From NCBI RefSeq assembly GCF_051622035.1, contig NC_135362.1, forward strand, positions 17,570,501 to 17,634,500: DNA of 64,000 nt, read 5' to 3'. Source of the stretch: Arctopsyche grandis. Its lineage: Eukaryota; Arthropoda; Insecta; Trichoptera; Hydropsychidae. The notes beneath the pieces were generated by a model. It worked only from the letters and a program-made list of their open reading frames with translations. It ran no database searches and was not told the DNA's origin. The translations under genes and the position numbers were made by a program. The number at the start of each line of letters is the position of its first letter. Position 1 is the stretch's first letter. Positions 2,551-53,640 of the stretch are shown here, piece after piece.

Positions 2551-2975
2551 AATACTTTTAATGGTAAAGGGTCCAAAGCCTCTTTATCCACAAAGGAAAT
2601 CGCCTCTCCCTCACTTATTTTAGCCAATCCAGCAAAATTGCAAATGTCCATTCAACCATAGAAATTTATACCCGCACCCGTCGGCGTGGCCATCCCTTAC
2701 ACGTGCGAGCCCACGTACTCGCATCCCACTCCCACGCATCGAGATCTCCGAATGCAGAAACGAGACGGGAGATATCCACTTTATGGGCTCTATTTTCTCT
2801 CTATAGTTTTTTTTTACCCTGACTTGATGAGGGTTCTACACATATGATGGGCGGCCGGCTTTGACCATTGGGGGACCGGTTTTCATTGGACCGGTCAAGC
2901 AAACTGACCAATGGGCACGCTCCCCCAACCGGTACGAAGTGTGCCCCATTGAATATACAAAAAACAAACAATATA
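2551..2975. promoter_or_regulatory. G+C-richer low-repeat island, candidate regulatory module
   Basis: The island stands out from A+T-rich surroundings and lacks transposon motifs or long open frames. It contains a tight group of ACCGGT sites (separate entry) and two ATTGG/CCAAT boxes. A regulatory role is inference from composition and motif clustering. Confidence 0.3.
2875..2933. promoter_or_regulatory. Triple ACCGGT cluster (Grainyhead-like sites)
   Basis: ACCGGT occurs at 2875-2880, 2890-2895 and 2928-2933, within 59 bp. ACCGGT is the core of the Grainyhead/CP2 site AACCGGTT; the third copy is preceded by A and the first is followed by TT. Binding is not shown by sequence alone. Confidence 0.3.
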
Positions 2976-3077
2976 AATCAGTGATTTTAAAATTTTATAC
3001 ATTCAAATGCTACTAGAAGTTGATAGAAATATTCGAATTTTTGTTAGCAAATATTCCAACCACTTCTTATATCATTT

Positions 3078-37235: not shown

Positions 37236-37307
37236 TACATTTAATAAAATTTTAATTAAATTCGTCACATTTAACAAGACAGTTCCGAACTATTTTATTC
37301 ATAGAAA

Positions 37308-39799
<2,492 letters not shown>

Positions 39800-40520
39800 A
39801 GACTCTTCTCTGTGGTCAGCTTTGACAGATAGTCATCCTAGGTATCACTTGGATCACTTATGAGTTATTACATGCCATTTAACAGGGTTACTTTGTAAGT
39901 GAAAGTAGTTAGTTATGATAATAATAGATTAGCAATTGTTATACTACTTTTTTACAGATCTTTATCGTGAGACGCCTCTTTGGAGACAACGGATTTATAT
40001 ATGTGAGTGCGGTTTGCAATTTAATATTTTAATAATAACTTTAGTAAAGAATATAAAATTACACGAATTACTTTAATATAATTTAAATATGAAAAAGAAC
40101 TGATAGACAGTTGGGAAACACCGTTTCTGTTTGCTATTATTCTATTAAGTAAAGTTCGTTAAAGATTTTTGGCTGGAAGCAATTATGTGGAAGATTTATT
40201 GCTTCTGTGGGACCGACTTGACTGACGAAGGACCCTTTTTTTGTATTCAGGTAAGGAGATGTATCTCGTTCGTATATTCTTTTGCTCAGATTTGACACAA
40301 AAATTAGCACAAAATTTTTCGAAATAACTGATATAAAACCGCTTTTTACGACCGATTTGCTGTTTATTTTTACACTTAAATTATACTAGGATGCAATTAG
40401 TAAAATAAGTGATTAGATGGTTAAGTTTTTAGATTAAATTTCGTGCAATAGCCGGGTTTAAGCGAGTAATAGCGGGAAGAACGCAGAAGCATGTCTTCCC
40501 CGCATGACACGAAAGACCGA
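39800..40520 (-). other. 5' region of the RTE copy and flank
   Basis: Upstream, in minus-strand terms, of the RTE frame. The 5' untranslated region probably occupies part of it, but I cannot locate the 5' boundary or a target duplication. No other feature is supported. Confidence 0.4.

Positions 40521-40525: not shown

Positions 40526-40560
<35 letters not shown>
40526..40560. repeat. (TA)n at the left border of the LTR element
   Basis: TA dinucleotides run straight up to the TGTAGG start of the left LTR. Another (TA)n follows the right LTR, so the element sits inside a TA microsatellite, and any 4-bp TATA duplication is invisible within it. Confidence 0.95.
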
Positions 40561-40564
<4 letters not shown>

Positions 40565-40763
40565 GGAATGATTTTTAAACGAGCCGTAATTGTGGTTGGT
40601 CAAACTGCAAGGGATAAAGTATGAGTGTGGTATGCATGGGAAAGACCGGATGCGTGTTGTTATGGTCACTTGTTGGAGAGCAAGCCCGAAGATGTGTTAA
40701 TAAATACATAGTTCTGACTTAATCTGCGTTTCACTTGGAATCCTTCACATCCGGATCCTATAT
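40561..40763 (+). repeat. 5' LTR, 203 bp
   Basis: It begins TGTAGGAATG and ends GGATCCTATAT. By eye it is base-for-base identical to 43214-43416. It contains AATAAA at 40699-40704, a probable polyadenylation signal. The TGTAGG/CCTATA ends are an imperfect inverted pair. The last two or three bases are ambiguous because of the flanking TA. Confidence 0.93.
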
Positions 40764-40764
40764 T

Positions 40765-40783
40765 TGGGGGCTTTGTCCGGGAT
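40765..40783 (+). other. Primer binding site, tRNA-Pro type
   Basis: TGGGGGCTTTGTCCGGGAT starts one or two bases after the LTR. The complement of the 3' end of animal tRNA-Pro is TGGGGGCTCGTCCGGGAT; the site matches except for C replaced by TT near the middle. Minus-strand DNA synthesis would be primed here. Confidence 0.8.
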
Positions 40784-40866
40784 GCCTGAAGACATTTCGA
40801 GTGACAGCCGGAAGCGGTCAGACGACGACGAGGAGTTTTGACAGTTGAGGTTAGGACGCGCGCGCG

Positions 40867-42378
40867 ATGACGAGAACGCGGAAGCCCGTGACGTCGGTGA
40901 CGTCACGTCAGCGAACACGCCACACGACGATGATGATATCCACGACGAGAAAGACGACGCCAGTGGCAACGACGACGAGGGAGATACCACAGTTCAATTT
41001 CCGAGATCTGGAGGTTGATTTCGGTCTGCCGAAATATAACGGCAGAAATAGCCCTATTGCAGTGTGGATTGAGCGCCTCGAAGAAAACGCGCAAATCCTC
41101 GGCTGGACGGAGACACAACAGTTGGTGTATGGGCGGATGCTGTGTGAAGGAACTGCCAAGAACTTCTTGGACTCGGAAACGGGCATAATCACGTGGGCGA
41201 TATTAAAAGAACGATTGACCAGAGAGTTTGGCCATCAGTTGAATAGTGCGGACGTGCACAGAGAACTGAGGTTAGAGAAAAAGGGAAAAGCAGAAGACAG
41301 TTTAAGCTATATCTACCGGATGAAGGGGATTGCAGCCAGGTGTAGTTTTATTGAGGAAGAGGCGATTATCGCGTACATAATTGGTGGACTTGGGTTTGAT
41401 AAGTACGAAAAATTGATTCTGAGCTGGGCTGGATCTATTAAGGAGCTGAAGACGCGAATTACGCAGTGCGAGAAAATTAGAGAGGACGACGAACCCAGGG
41501 TGACGGGGCCCGTGAGAAACCGTGAAAACCGAGAAAGACTGAGTTCACGATGCTACAATTGTGGTGGACGTGGACACTTAGCAGCCGACTGTAGGTTTAA
41601 GACGAGAGGAACTCGTTGTTTCAATTGTAACGAGTTTGGGCACATATCAGCTCAATGTAACAGCATCAAAACAAAGACTGTCTTGACAATACAAGAAGAA
41701 ATAAGAAAAGAAGTCAGTATTCCAACACAAGAGGACGATGCGAACATGGCTGATGGAGATGTAAACATGGCCAATGTAAGTGTGAACAGTGATGGTTTGC
41801 ACAGAAAAAGACCTTTGCAGCAACGGGCTTCACGAGAGATGTCTGCTCAAAGAGAACTCATTGTTTCCAATGATGAAGAGGACGATGCGAACATGGCTGA
41901 TGGAGGTGTGAACCTGGCTGATGGAAGTATGGACGGTGATGGATTGCAAAGAAGAAGACTTTGGGACTACGGAGACATACCGTTTTCAAATACAGATGAA
42001 CCACCCGATGATCAATTTGGAAAAGGATCTAAGGATTATAGTCATTTGAAGAATTCTGAAGATGAGAATAAAGAAAAGGAAAAACATAAAGACAAAGAGA
42101 AAGATATGGCTAAATCACAAGAAGGATTAAGGGACCCAGTCAAAATTTCAACACCAAAAGACACTGTATTCACTTTCAAGCTCAGTCGTAGTCGGATTGA
42201 TGTTAATTCAATGGAAAAGAAAATAGAACCATGGATTGAGAAAAGACTTACTGGATGTATCAGTGAGCTAGAACCAATATGTGTTGACTTCATTTATGGT
42301 AAATTACTAGCAGAATATCTGTGGGGTGACGGCAGATTCCTCGGACAGTCACAGAGAATCGCCGAGGGCATTGGATAG
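40867..42378 (+). CDS. gag: Gag polyprotein with two zinc knuckles and a PWI-like C-terminus
   Basis: This 503-residue structural protein would package element RNA. A basic Arg/Thr-rich N-terminus (1-38) is followed by a capsid-like region (about 45-205: LPKYNGRNSPIAVWIERLEE, FLDSETGIITW, EFGHQLNSADVHRELR). Two CCHC knuckles follow: C229-C232-H237-C242 and C251-C254-H259-C264. The linker carries two versions of EDDANMADG-x-VN, an internal duplication. A Lys/Glu-rich stretch (399-420) leads to a C-terminal segment (about 428-485) containing MEKKIEPWIEKRL and EPICVDFIYGKLLAEYL. This matches the PWI-domain pattern of RBM25-type splicing factors (MEKxIxPWIxKK...ExEPxxVDFIxxK), with Pro-Trp-Ile at 455-457. 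The PWI match stops before its last helix, and an unrelated 18-residue tail ends the frame. Start: first Met, five codons after an in-frame TAG. There is no pol downstream and no frameshift inside. Confidence 0.9.
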   Translation: MTRTRKPVTSVTSRQRTRHTTMMISTTRKTTPVATTTREIPQFNFRDLEVDFGLPKYNGRNSPIAVWIERLEENAQILGWTETQQLVYGRMLCEGTAKNFLDSETGIITWAILKERLTREFGHQLNSADVHRELRLEKKGKAEDSLSYIYRMKGIAARCSFIEEEAIIAYIIGGLGFDKYEKLILSWAGSIKELKTRITQCEKIREDDEPRVTGPVRNRENRERLSSRCYNCGGRGHLAADCRFKTRGTRCFNCNEFGHISAQCNSIKTKTVLTIQEEIRKEVSIPTQEDDANMADGDVNMANVSVNSDGLHRKRPLQQRASREMSAQRELIVSNDEEDDANMADGGVNLADGSMDGDGLQRRRLWDYGDIPFSNTDEPPDDQFGKGSKDYSHLKNSEDENKEKEKHKDKEKDMAKSQEGLRDPVKISTPKDTVFTFKLSRSRIDVNSMEKKIEPWIEKRLTGCISELEPICVDFIYGKLLAEYLWGDGRFLGQSQRIAEGIG

Positions 42379-43213
42379 AATTTAAGTTGCACCGATGGAA
42401 GTGAAGTGTGCGTTTGTGAATTAGAGAATAAGTGAAATACCTGGAGGGTTTTTAGTTAAGCCTTACTTGTAATTTGATGATTGAAAAGTGTAATGTTTTA
42501 TTGCTTATTCTAGTATTTTTTGGGAAGTGCTTGGTACATTGAATCATGTTTTAATGTGGTTACATGCTTAGAAAAATATAAGATAACTGTATTGAAATGT
42601 AATTCTAGTAATGTTTTAAAATGTGATTGTTTCTGGTGTAAAGATTTAACCTGTCATTGTAAAGGTATTGATTTTAATGTTTTATTGCTAATTCTAGTAA
42701 TGTTTTAAAATGTGATTGTTTCCGGGGTAAAAATTTTACTTGTCATTGTAAAGGTTGTGATACCTTTCTGTTTTGTATTGCTTGTAATAATTTTACATAG
42801 TAATTGTGATACCTTTCTGTTTTGTATTGCTTGAAATAATTTTAAATTGTAATTGTGATGATTTATGTGTAACTTTAATTGTGATGATTTATGTGTAACT
42901 TTATTGAAGATTGAATTGTGTTGAAATGAAAAATTGATTTGTAGTGAAATGTGTAACGATTAATTTGTTATAATTGTAATTGTTATGTAAATTGTAAAAT
43001 GATTGATGTATAAGTGTATTGAAATGTAGTTGTGATGATGATTGTAATTGTGATGTAAATTGTAATTGTGACAATTGAAAGCATGTTTAGAAGAATATAA
43101 GATGATTGTATAGAGTAGAAGATGAAATGTAAAAGAATGTGAGATGAAATGCTGTAAAAATATAAAAGACAGAATGTCATCCGAGGGCGAATGACAGTCA
43201 GGAATGACCGAAA
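42379..43213 (+). other. Non-coding 3' interior of the LTR element
   Basis: A+T-rich and GATT/TTGTAATTG-rich, with tandem duplications. About 70 bp starting at AATTCTAGTAATG (42600) repeats from 42690 with few changes. ATTGTGATGATTTATGTGTA is repeated near 42851 and 42877. No pol-like frame is present. The bases just before the right LTR (GGAATGACCGAAA) are not a clean polypurine tract. Confidence 0.85.
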
Positions 43214-43537
<324 letters not shown>

Positions 43538-52452: not shown

Positions 52453-52619
52453 TACTAGTGTTGGACCCGTTGATTTCAACGGGTGGTTTCGAAAAGGAAT
52501 TGAAACTCGAATAAAAATAAAGTTAAAGATATTGAATCGACTGGTTTCGGAAAGAAATTGATGCACGAATTACGAAGTGATTACGAATTACGAACTACGT
52601 TTTGTGCATCGCCGACCTC

Positions 52620-53175
52620 CTGACGCCTTTGCCCCCGATGCCTCCGTCGCTCCGGGGCCTTCGGCCCCAGCGCCGCCGGCGCCTCCGGCGCCCCCGACGC
52701 CTTCGGCACCCCGGGGGCTTCGCCCCCAGCGCCGCCGACGCCTCCGGCGCCCCCAGCACCCCCGATGCCTTCGGCACCCCGGGGGCTTCGCCCCCAGCGC
52801 CGCCGACGCCTCCGGCGCCCCCAGCCCCCCCGATGCCTTCGGCACCCCGGGGGCTTCGCCCCCAGCGTCCCCGATGCCTTCGGCACCCCGGGGGCTTCGC
52901 CCCCAGCGCCCCGATGCCTTCGGCACCCCGGGGGCTTCGCCCCCAGCGCCGCCGACGCCTCCGGCGCCCCCAGCGCCCCCGATGCCTTCGGCACCCCGGG
53001 GGCTTCGCCCCCAGCGCCGCCGACGCCTCCGGCGCCCCCAGCACCCCGGATGCCTTCGGCACCCTGGGGGCTTCGCCCCCAGCGCCCCCAATGCCTTCGG
53101 CACCCTGGGGGCTTCGCCCCCAGCGCCCCCGATGCCTTCGGCATCCCGAGGGCTTCGCCCCCAGCGCCCCGATGC
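52620..53175. repeat. GC-rich tandem array of UUC-loop hairpins
   Basis: It alternates GATGCCTTCGGCACC (TGCC-TTC-GGCA hairpin), GGGGGCTTCGCCCCC (GGGGGC-TTC-GCCCCC hairpin) and, in some units, CGACGCCTCCGGCGCC. About nine units occur, either short (about 40 bp) or long (about 66 bp). It is extremely G+C-rich in an A+T-rich genome. Confidence 0.9.
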
Positions 53176-53523
53176 AAAAATGAAAAAAATGAAAAAACTG
53201 AAAAAATGAAAAAAATGAAAAAACTGAAAAAATGAAAAAAATGAAAAAACTGAAAAAATGAAAAAAATGAAAAAACTGAAAAAATGAAAAAAATGAAAAA
53301 ACTGAAAAAATGAAAAAAATGAAAAAAATGAAAAAATGAAAAAAATGAAAAAACTGAAAAAATGAAAAAAATGAAAAAACTGAAAAAATGAAAAAAATGA
53401 AAAAAATGAAAAAACTGAAAAAATAAAAAAAATGAAAAAACTGAAAAAATGAAAAAAATGAAAAAACTGAAAAAATGAAAAAAATGAAAAATATGAAAAA
53501 AATGAAAAATATGAAAAAAAAAA
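53176..53523. repeat. A-rich tandem array (TGAAAAAA / CTGAAAAA units)
   Basis: Repeats of ATGAAAAAAATGAAAAAACTG-like units with small variations over about 350 bp. On the minus strand this translates as Phe/His/Ser-rich low-complexity sequence, not a gene. Confidence 0.95.
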
Positions 53524-53640
53524 ATTTTGTTCCCCATACTGGTTGATGGTTGATCGTCCGTCACATACAAATATACAAATATACAAATATACAAATATAT
53601 TTAGCGACAGTCCGTTTTTATATATATTATTATACTACCC

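Follow-up and report, generated by a model that had tools for sequence, protein, structure and literature searches.

What is the origin of the C-terminal part of a Gag protein that, past its zinc knuckles, runs on into a segment resembling a host splicing factor? This question is raised by an LTR element of 2.86 kb (40561-43416) in the window, a stretch of 64,000 nucleotides of the Arctopsyche grandis genome (G000:C8:17570501-17634500, in an assembly of 475.7 Mb). An earlier note had described the element as gag-only and as having captured a fragment of RBM25 with its PWI-like segment, an interpretation that the present analysis partly supports. The element carries one intact ORF (Table 1). 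Its LTR repeat copies (40560-40763 and 43213-43416) start with TG and are identical at 204/204 positions, and the longest stop-to-stop frame between 42379 and 43212 is 84 aa, with no Pfam pol family, so the gag-only description holds. Because pol is not detectable, the element is filed as non-autonomous. It is inserted in a (TA)n repeat, where the outer end of the LTR is uncertain and a TA target-site duplication is indistinguishable. The 19 nt downstream of the 5' LTR may resemble a tRNA-Pro primer-binding site, and no clear polypurine tract was seen by eye upstream of 43213. The capsid-like region matches Retrotrans_gag (PF03732) with E=0.0021, under the Pfam cut-off, and the Gag is similar to the gag-pol proteins P0013 and P0014 (tblastn E=8e-44 and 9e-36), which beyond Gag and the knuckles give just one match on the element (E=0.18). 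C-terminal to the CCHC knuckles lie 239 residues of the ORF; its RBM25-derived part is referred to here as the tail.

Table 1 Features of the A. grandis LTR element, in positions of the window.
Feature	Position	Strand	Remark or basis
5' LTR	40561..40763	+	starts TGTAGG; AATAAA at 40699
Possible primer-binding site TGGGGGCTTTGTCCGGGAT	40765..40783	+	19 nt after 5' LTR, from sequence
Intact ORF, 503 aa: Gag and RBM25-derived tail	40867..42378	+	
Gag capsid-like region, type A, residues 30-205	40954..41481	+	
Two CCHC zinc knuckles	41551-41592, 41617-41658	+	PF00098 E=5e-10
Two tandem 87-nt units matching RBM25 exon E9	41729-41815, 41876-41962	+	blastn to host gene
Exon-E5-like stretch between the tandem 87-nt units	41807-41867	+	blastn to host gene
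RBM25 exon E9-derived stretch (NDEEDD...RRRLWDYGDIPFSN)	41869..41992	+	blastn, alignment
RBM25 exon E10-derived: Lys/Glu-rich part, KSQEG, KISTPKD...FKL	41993..42194	+	blastn
RBM25 exon E11-derived: first PWI part, Pro-Trp-Ile at 42229-42237	42195..42311	+	blastn, 3v53
C-terminal extension YLWGDGRFLGQSQRIAEGIG, not recognisably RBM25	42316..42375	+	host alignment ends at ...KLLA
3' noncoding region, AT-rich, internal repeats	42379..43212	+	
3' LTR	43214..43416	+	direct-repeat copy of 5' LTR

Elsewhere in the window, positions 37295-39832 of the minus strand hold a non-LTR retrotransposon ORF (845 aa stop to stop, endonuclease and reverse transcriptase: Exo_endo_phos E=2.7e-12, RVT_1 E=6.2e-33) that meets a (TA)n tract. 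At 52581-53634 several frames are open on both strands; the translations are Pro/Ala/Arg-rich one way and Gly/Ala-rich with a long Phe/His/Ser stretch the other way, and the region is probably a GC-rich repeat adjoining an AT-rich one.

The likeness of the tail to RBM25 was assessed with structures, profiles and shuffled sequences. The Pro-Trp-Ile triplet (residues 455-457) and the stretch KIST...KLLAE (residues 426-483, 42142-42315) lie where the earlier note had placed them. Against PDB, phmmer aligned this PWI-like part with human RBM25 (3v53) over 58 residues ungapped (E=7.3e-7) and with another PWI protein, 1mp1, at E=0.23; P0012, a more RBM25-like version of the tail from the same species, reached E=1.9e-10 against 3v53. 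Within the PWI block of the window, 24 of 55 residues are those of the RBM25 family majority, while 2000 shuffles gave a mean of 4.0 and a maximum of 11. When 15 sequences were searched with an RBM25 profile (79 sequences), 11 fell above the inclusion line, with best stretches of 70.2 bits for P0012 and 36.8 bits for the window; P0011 (-1.8) and P0014 (-2.5) fell below it, and P0010 and P0013 did not appear. On the upstream part of P0012 the profile gave a weak, composition-biased 13.9 bits; shuffles, then host DNA, were therefore used. For each of four upstream RBM25-like stretches in three proteins (two of the stretches overlap), 0/200 shuffles scored as well, as against 22/200 and 100/200 for the controls P0014 and P0013. 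The tail is closer to RBM25 than to other PWI proteins and, with the host DNA matches given below, is derived from RBM25.

The Pfam PWI family (PF01480), by which the earlier note had proposed to judge the segment, did not reach its cut-off of 22: it scored 13.2 bits (E=0.12), and only on a cut-out piece of 92 aa. No PWI line was obtained for a 132-aa piece, for the whole window protein, for 13 family members scanned whole or for the 3' half of the ORF in a second element family (L075, see below). Taken literally, this is the outcome that the earlier note had named as refuting (no PWI hit above threshold); the homology to RBM25 stands because of the 3v53, shuffle and host DNA evidence. The suggestion that the segment is partial or vestigial fits the data: the tail has no counterpart of the last long PWI helix (helix 385-420 in the P0015 model) and its predicted model is poor, with a mean pLDDT of 51 compared with block means of ~84-95 over the PWI domain of a real RBM25 modelled with a similar alignment. 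On these models the PWI helical bundle of the window tail is predicted to be incomplete.

A captured host sequence can be compared with its donor in the same genome. A genome search with the insect RBM25 P0024 located A. grandis RBM25 on contig C3, where ten exons with AG/GT borders (E3-E12) span G000:C3:10886584-10889025; the exon numbering is our own, edges were placed by homology and splice signals, and E12 is cut just past the stop. With blastn, host E9 matches the window at 41869-41910 (E=1.2e-9) and 41909-41999 (E=2.2e-12) and a second time in the tandem copy at 41729-41817; E10 matches 41993-42182 (E=9.5e-30), with an additional 25-nt match at 41692-41716; E11 matches 42195-42311 (79.5% over 117 nt, E=7.3e-25); and E5 matches 41807-41867. 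These DNA matches persist with the low-complexity filter on, and the reversed host RBM25 sequence gave no blastn match to the element. Most of the sequence past the knuckles (about 41729-42311), and not the PWI part alone, thus matches A. grandis RBM25 exons; the extent given by the earlier note was understated, RBM25-like DNA starting near 41729 or perhaps at 41692. When joined E9, E10 and E11 are aligned to the window, the two agree at 341 of 418 aligned bases and the joins are ungapped; the host introns at E9/E10 (76 nt) and E10/E11 (87 nt) are absent from the element. With the introns missing at the exon joins, the captured RBM25 piece came from spliced RNA. Capture of a host splicing-factor fragment is strongly supported by the match of A. 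grandis RBM25 in both protein and DNA, with joins at the host intron sites, and the direction from host to element follows from the presence of RBM25 across animals.

A likeness due to chance or to biased composition was also considered: the tail is partly Lys/Glu-rich, and the Glu-rich control P0013 scores 79, like its own shuffles (mean 79.8). This explanation has virtually no probability and is refuted by the ungapped PWI match, the filtered exon-by-exon DNA matches, the lack of any match to the reversed host sequence and the position of the joins at intron sites.

Host and window have diverged with dS 0.33 and dN 0.20 over 139 codons. In the PWI block, the window is identical to A. grandis RBM25 at 30/55 residues and to the most similar of the other 99 RBM25s at 29/55 (34/55 and 32/55 for P0012). 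Since this block is hardly nearer to the A. grandis protein, assignment of the donor lineage rests on the DNA and on fast-evolving linkers, such as DGQFSKGSH and PPASPSR. The tail aligns ungapped with its source, RBM25 (3v53), along the beginning of the PWI domain and the adjoining flank; compared with RBM25, the window tail has nothing from before exon E5 and no last PWI helix, and the captured pieces come from roughly the C-terminal 40% of the A. grandis protein. For the last 20 residues of the ORF, derivation from RBM25 in a shifted frame was considered by eye and set aside.

Among the 57 matches of the genome search with P0024, 17 contain an open frame of 550-610 aa, and in a further three the frame length is 584. 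The 17 frames match residues 453, 454 or 456 to 759 of P0024 (800 residues) in a single run, and seven of these loci (L075 and L077-L082) were retrieved as a second element family. L075 has its own pair of identical 290-nt LTRs and a Gag of another type than types A and B described below; Retrotrans_gag is above the Pfam cut-off, a protease-like remnant (ALIDTGSED) was recognised by eye (Pfam only E=0.1), and Pfam found no zinc knuckle. Its RBM25 sequence, which begins in E3 and reaches E11 with gaps, agrees with the host at 171 of 306 aligned residues and crosses the E5/E6, E6/E7, E9/E10 and E10/E11 joins without introns. The DNA of L075 matches the window mainly at 41891-42950, with short matches from 41691 to 43114 (E at most 1e-4), which covers the RBM25-derived sequence together with the greater portion of the 3' noncoding region, whose larger first part, to about 42950, is common to both families. 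At this E limit, no DNA match to L075 was found in the window 5' LTR and Gag (40561-41690) or in the 3' LTR. The window and P0012/L075 have in common the loss of five host residues (SLIDK), the junction RDPV-KIST and the ending LWGDGR, and window and P0012 agree against the host at 9 of 55 PWI-block residues. The longer RBM25 piece of the L075 family therefore looks like, and probably is, the same capture as that of the window. Several independent captures were considered and judged unlikely, and a single capture is favored because the losses and endings are common to both families.

In L075, host exon E3 is cut short after RADSDLKDGEQEK and the start of E4 (IKVERDK) stands directly next to it, which points either to a deletion within the piece or to an alternative 5' splice site of the RNA that was captured. 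Two other loci, L073 (G000:C12:30256592) and L076 (G000:C1:15262251), hold RBM25-like PWI pieces with 52% and 48% identity to P0024, both in short frames and that of L073 with a stop; L076 also contains a reverse transcriptase frame similar, by eye, to that at 37295-39832 of the window.

Relatives of the window Gag were found in 14 proteins, 12 from A. grandis plus P0013 and P0014 from other sources. The segment is not universal in the Gags of this lineage: it is present in 10 of the 12 A. grandis proteins and absent from P0013 and P0014, which have reverse transcriptase or protease Pfam domains in place of the tail. Of the remaining two, both annotated gene models known as proteins, P0010 is truncated before the tail and P0011 ends past its knuckles (Pfam E=7e-11). 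On the domain content of P0011, P0013 and P0014, an element lineage without the captured part appears to exist. Type B Gags carry RBM25 sequence upstream of the knuckles as well, AEPIDSDSSGAGETP against host AEPIDSDSSGAGRTP, which crosses the E5/E6 join and scores 60 against a shuffle maximum of 54. Past their knuckles, P0003, P0006 and P0009 retain a further piece resembling RBM25, KKPCVLMEVNLERSLPRRKKEQ, which corresponds to host exon E4 and is missing from the window copy.

The genome contains at least 150 copies of the tail. The best-scoring 150 of 238 candidates, a sample that the tool biases toward intact copies, are 88-100% identical and have 0 stop codons in the matched stretch. We retrieved 70 loci, the 30 best and 40 picked from the lower end, among which 32 have a type A Gag, 34 type B and four are unassigned at the score threshold. 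The PWI part is free of stops and gaps in 70/70 loci, and across residues 360-422 the 70 loci show a single stop and a single gap; elsewhere, stops were seen in 2/32 type A capsids, 1/33 type B capsids and 3/51 knuckle regions (11 gapped). For 43 loci an LTR pair could be measured over 121-208 nt, and 22 pairs are without mismatch; many insertions are therefore young. A scan of viral contigs, which may leave out the window's own genome, found no relative. That the tail-bearing ORFs are domesticated host genes rather than element proteins would fit the intact ORF in the window and the annotation, in public data, of ten proteins with the tail as host loci; against this, the copies are dispersed and many lie between near-identical LTRs, and we consider domestication very improbable.

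Same-strand clusters of tail copies were noted at G000:C41:1786078-2221760 (eleven copies) and G000:C9:3176222-3286333 (five copies, all 90% identical to the window tail and with a 168-aa frame), and may have arisen by tandem or segmental duplication of DNA that includes the element. L015 and L016 are short copies with LTRs at 962-1165 and 2834-3037, 1872 bases apart, whose open frame of 214 aa is the tail without a recognised Gag.

Taken together, we think it quite probable that this is a non-autonomous LTR element whose Gag is fused in frame to an RBM25 piece from spliced RNA, captured once, and that the module has passed between element backbones. Spliced RBM25 RNA would have been copied into an element a single time. 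Most likely, reverse transcriptase switched template to an RBM25 transcript that shared its particle; no route is simpler, given that the captured piece begins and ends within the gene. The same outcome might be reached by read-through (3' transduction), where an element upstream of or inside RBM25 gives a chimeric transcript that is spliced and reverse-transcribed. This would likewise yield intronless joins, and the captured parts of the L075 family are colinear, on the same strand and in frame; however, the piece ends within E11 and continues into non-RBM25 sequence, with the RBM25 3' end missing, and within 5.5 kb of the host gene both elements match exons only, with no LTR seen. We regard read-through as unlikely. 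After capture, the module would have consisted of the RBM25 piece and the 3' noncoding region downstream of it, and would have lost internal parts and gained tandem repeats; recombination between elements may then have placed it on at least three Gag types and with two unlike LTRs. Because pol is missing, dependence on a helper is likely, and the copies are presumably mobilised by the enzymes of an autonomous relative.

The extent of constraint on the tail was assessed with pN/pS, for which intervals were obtained by a bootstrap over codons that ignores shared descent. On this basis constraint is clear for the capsid of type A (0.18, interval 0.12-0.27, 31 copies) and the knuckles (0.34, 0.17-0.75) and weaker for the type B capsid (0.55, 0.28-1.17); the other regions gave 0.70 for the last 20 residues (0.41-1.41) and 0.55 for the tail (0.29-1.06, 69 copies), or 0.61 (0.29-1.43) for the tails of the 22 copies with mismatch-free LTR pairs. 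In the RBM25-derived part of seven type C copies, pS is 0.019 and pN 0.008; a type C pN/pS of 1.22 and the 'gag CA' line were discarded, as a small indel had shifted the compared codons. Among close copies, amino-acid change in the PWI part averages 0.028, the lowest of six regions. Window and P0012 differ at 20 of 55 sites, and these are not depleted at positions conserved in RBM25 (p=0.78). Where either sequence departs from the RBM25 majority, it tends to do so at variable sites (p=0.007 for the window, p=0.006 for P0012), but the same test against the real host is not significant (p=0.35 and 0.21), and this bias is mostly ascribed to natural RBM25 variation that predates the capture.

The earlier note suggested that the tail might give Gag extra RNA binding or nuclear targeting. 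The tail might be a working, selected module that binds nucleic acid or splicing factors and helps the element RNA to remain unspliced, to exit the nucleus or to be packaged, which would explain its passage between Gag and LTR types. The occurrence of one module on three Gag types and with two LTRs is in line with this, as are the intact PWI parts of all 70 loci, and the low amino-acid change, the tail pN/pS and the variable-site bias leave room for a selected function. However, both bootstrap intervals for the tail reach 1, the differences between the two tail lineages do not spare conserved sites, and the domain has neither its last helix nor a confident predicted model. We consider such a working module doubtful. 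A more specific version is a little more doubtful again: the module, captured once, would serve trans-mobilised elements as a portable addition to Gag that handles unspliced genomic RNA or recruits the machinery of splicing or export, and this benefit would have led at least three Gag lineages under two different LTRs to adopt it. The tail is judged to be tolerated or weakly constrained; because the PWI fold is cut short, it would now most likely be a tolerated or weakly useful charged extension of Gag, rather than a PWI domain of the splicing type.

TR-GAG elements are gag-only, non-autonomous LTR elements in which a pair of LTRs encloses a gag ORF and pol is absent, and the A. grandis element differs from them in that its Gag bears a host-derived tail. 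In acutely transforming retroviruses, a piece of host mRNA is fused in frame to Gag, and the resulting viruses are defective and helper-dependent; in contrast to these Gag-oncogene fusions, the A. grandis case is an insect retrotransposon that has multiplied in its genome. To our knowledge, few cases exist in animals of a multiplying chimera in which Gag is joined to host sequence.

In plants, the capture of genes by LTR retrotransposons is well documented (PMC13317346). The maize element Bs1 is described as having transduced host-gene segments that yield a chimeric coding region (PMC13317346, PMC7264820). Like Bs1 as portrayed there, the A. grandis element is an LTR element with host-gene sequence in a chimeric coding region, here with the host exons joined without introns; unlike it, it is an insect element that draws on one host gene, a splicing factor, has at least 150 tail copies, and shows an apparent single capture on three Gag types and two LTRs. 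For rice and sorghum, captured genes in LTR retrotransposons are reported to lie usually in sense orientation (PMC7264820), and additional ORFs are reported in plant LTR elements (PMC3726574); compared with plant captures as outlined in these sources, the A. grandis case joins the host sequence to Gag, and no pol is detectable in the element. Among animal LTR elements, gene capture has been reported in crocodilian endogenous retroviruses (PMC4299795), a vertebrate case which, compared by description only, contrasts with an LTR element of an insect. LTR elements of bdelloid rotifers are described as carrying a captured ORF3 module on unrelated retroelement backbones (PMC5408684); the ORF3 products in that account are separate proteins, whereas the A. 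grandis module is a Gag fusion of host splicing-factor origin. MERVL-Rbm25 fusion transcripts, reported in mouse two-cell embryos (PMC10794949), appear from that report to be a different phenomenon. Literature on PWI or RBM25 together with retrotransposons, and on caddisfly LTR retrotransposons, contained no report of this element, mostly at the level of titles and abstracts.

Capture of host genes by LTR elements is thus already known, and a Gag fusion with a piece of a splicing factor is an unusual variant of it. Since a single genome contains the donor, recipient backbones of several kinds and numerous young copies, the path from capture to spread can be reconstructed. The finding also opens a direct question: does a piece of a splicing factor benefit an element that has to keep its own genome from being spliced?
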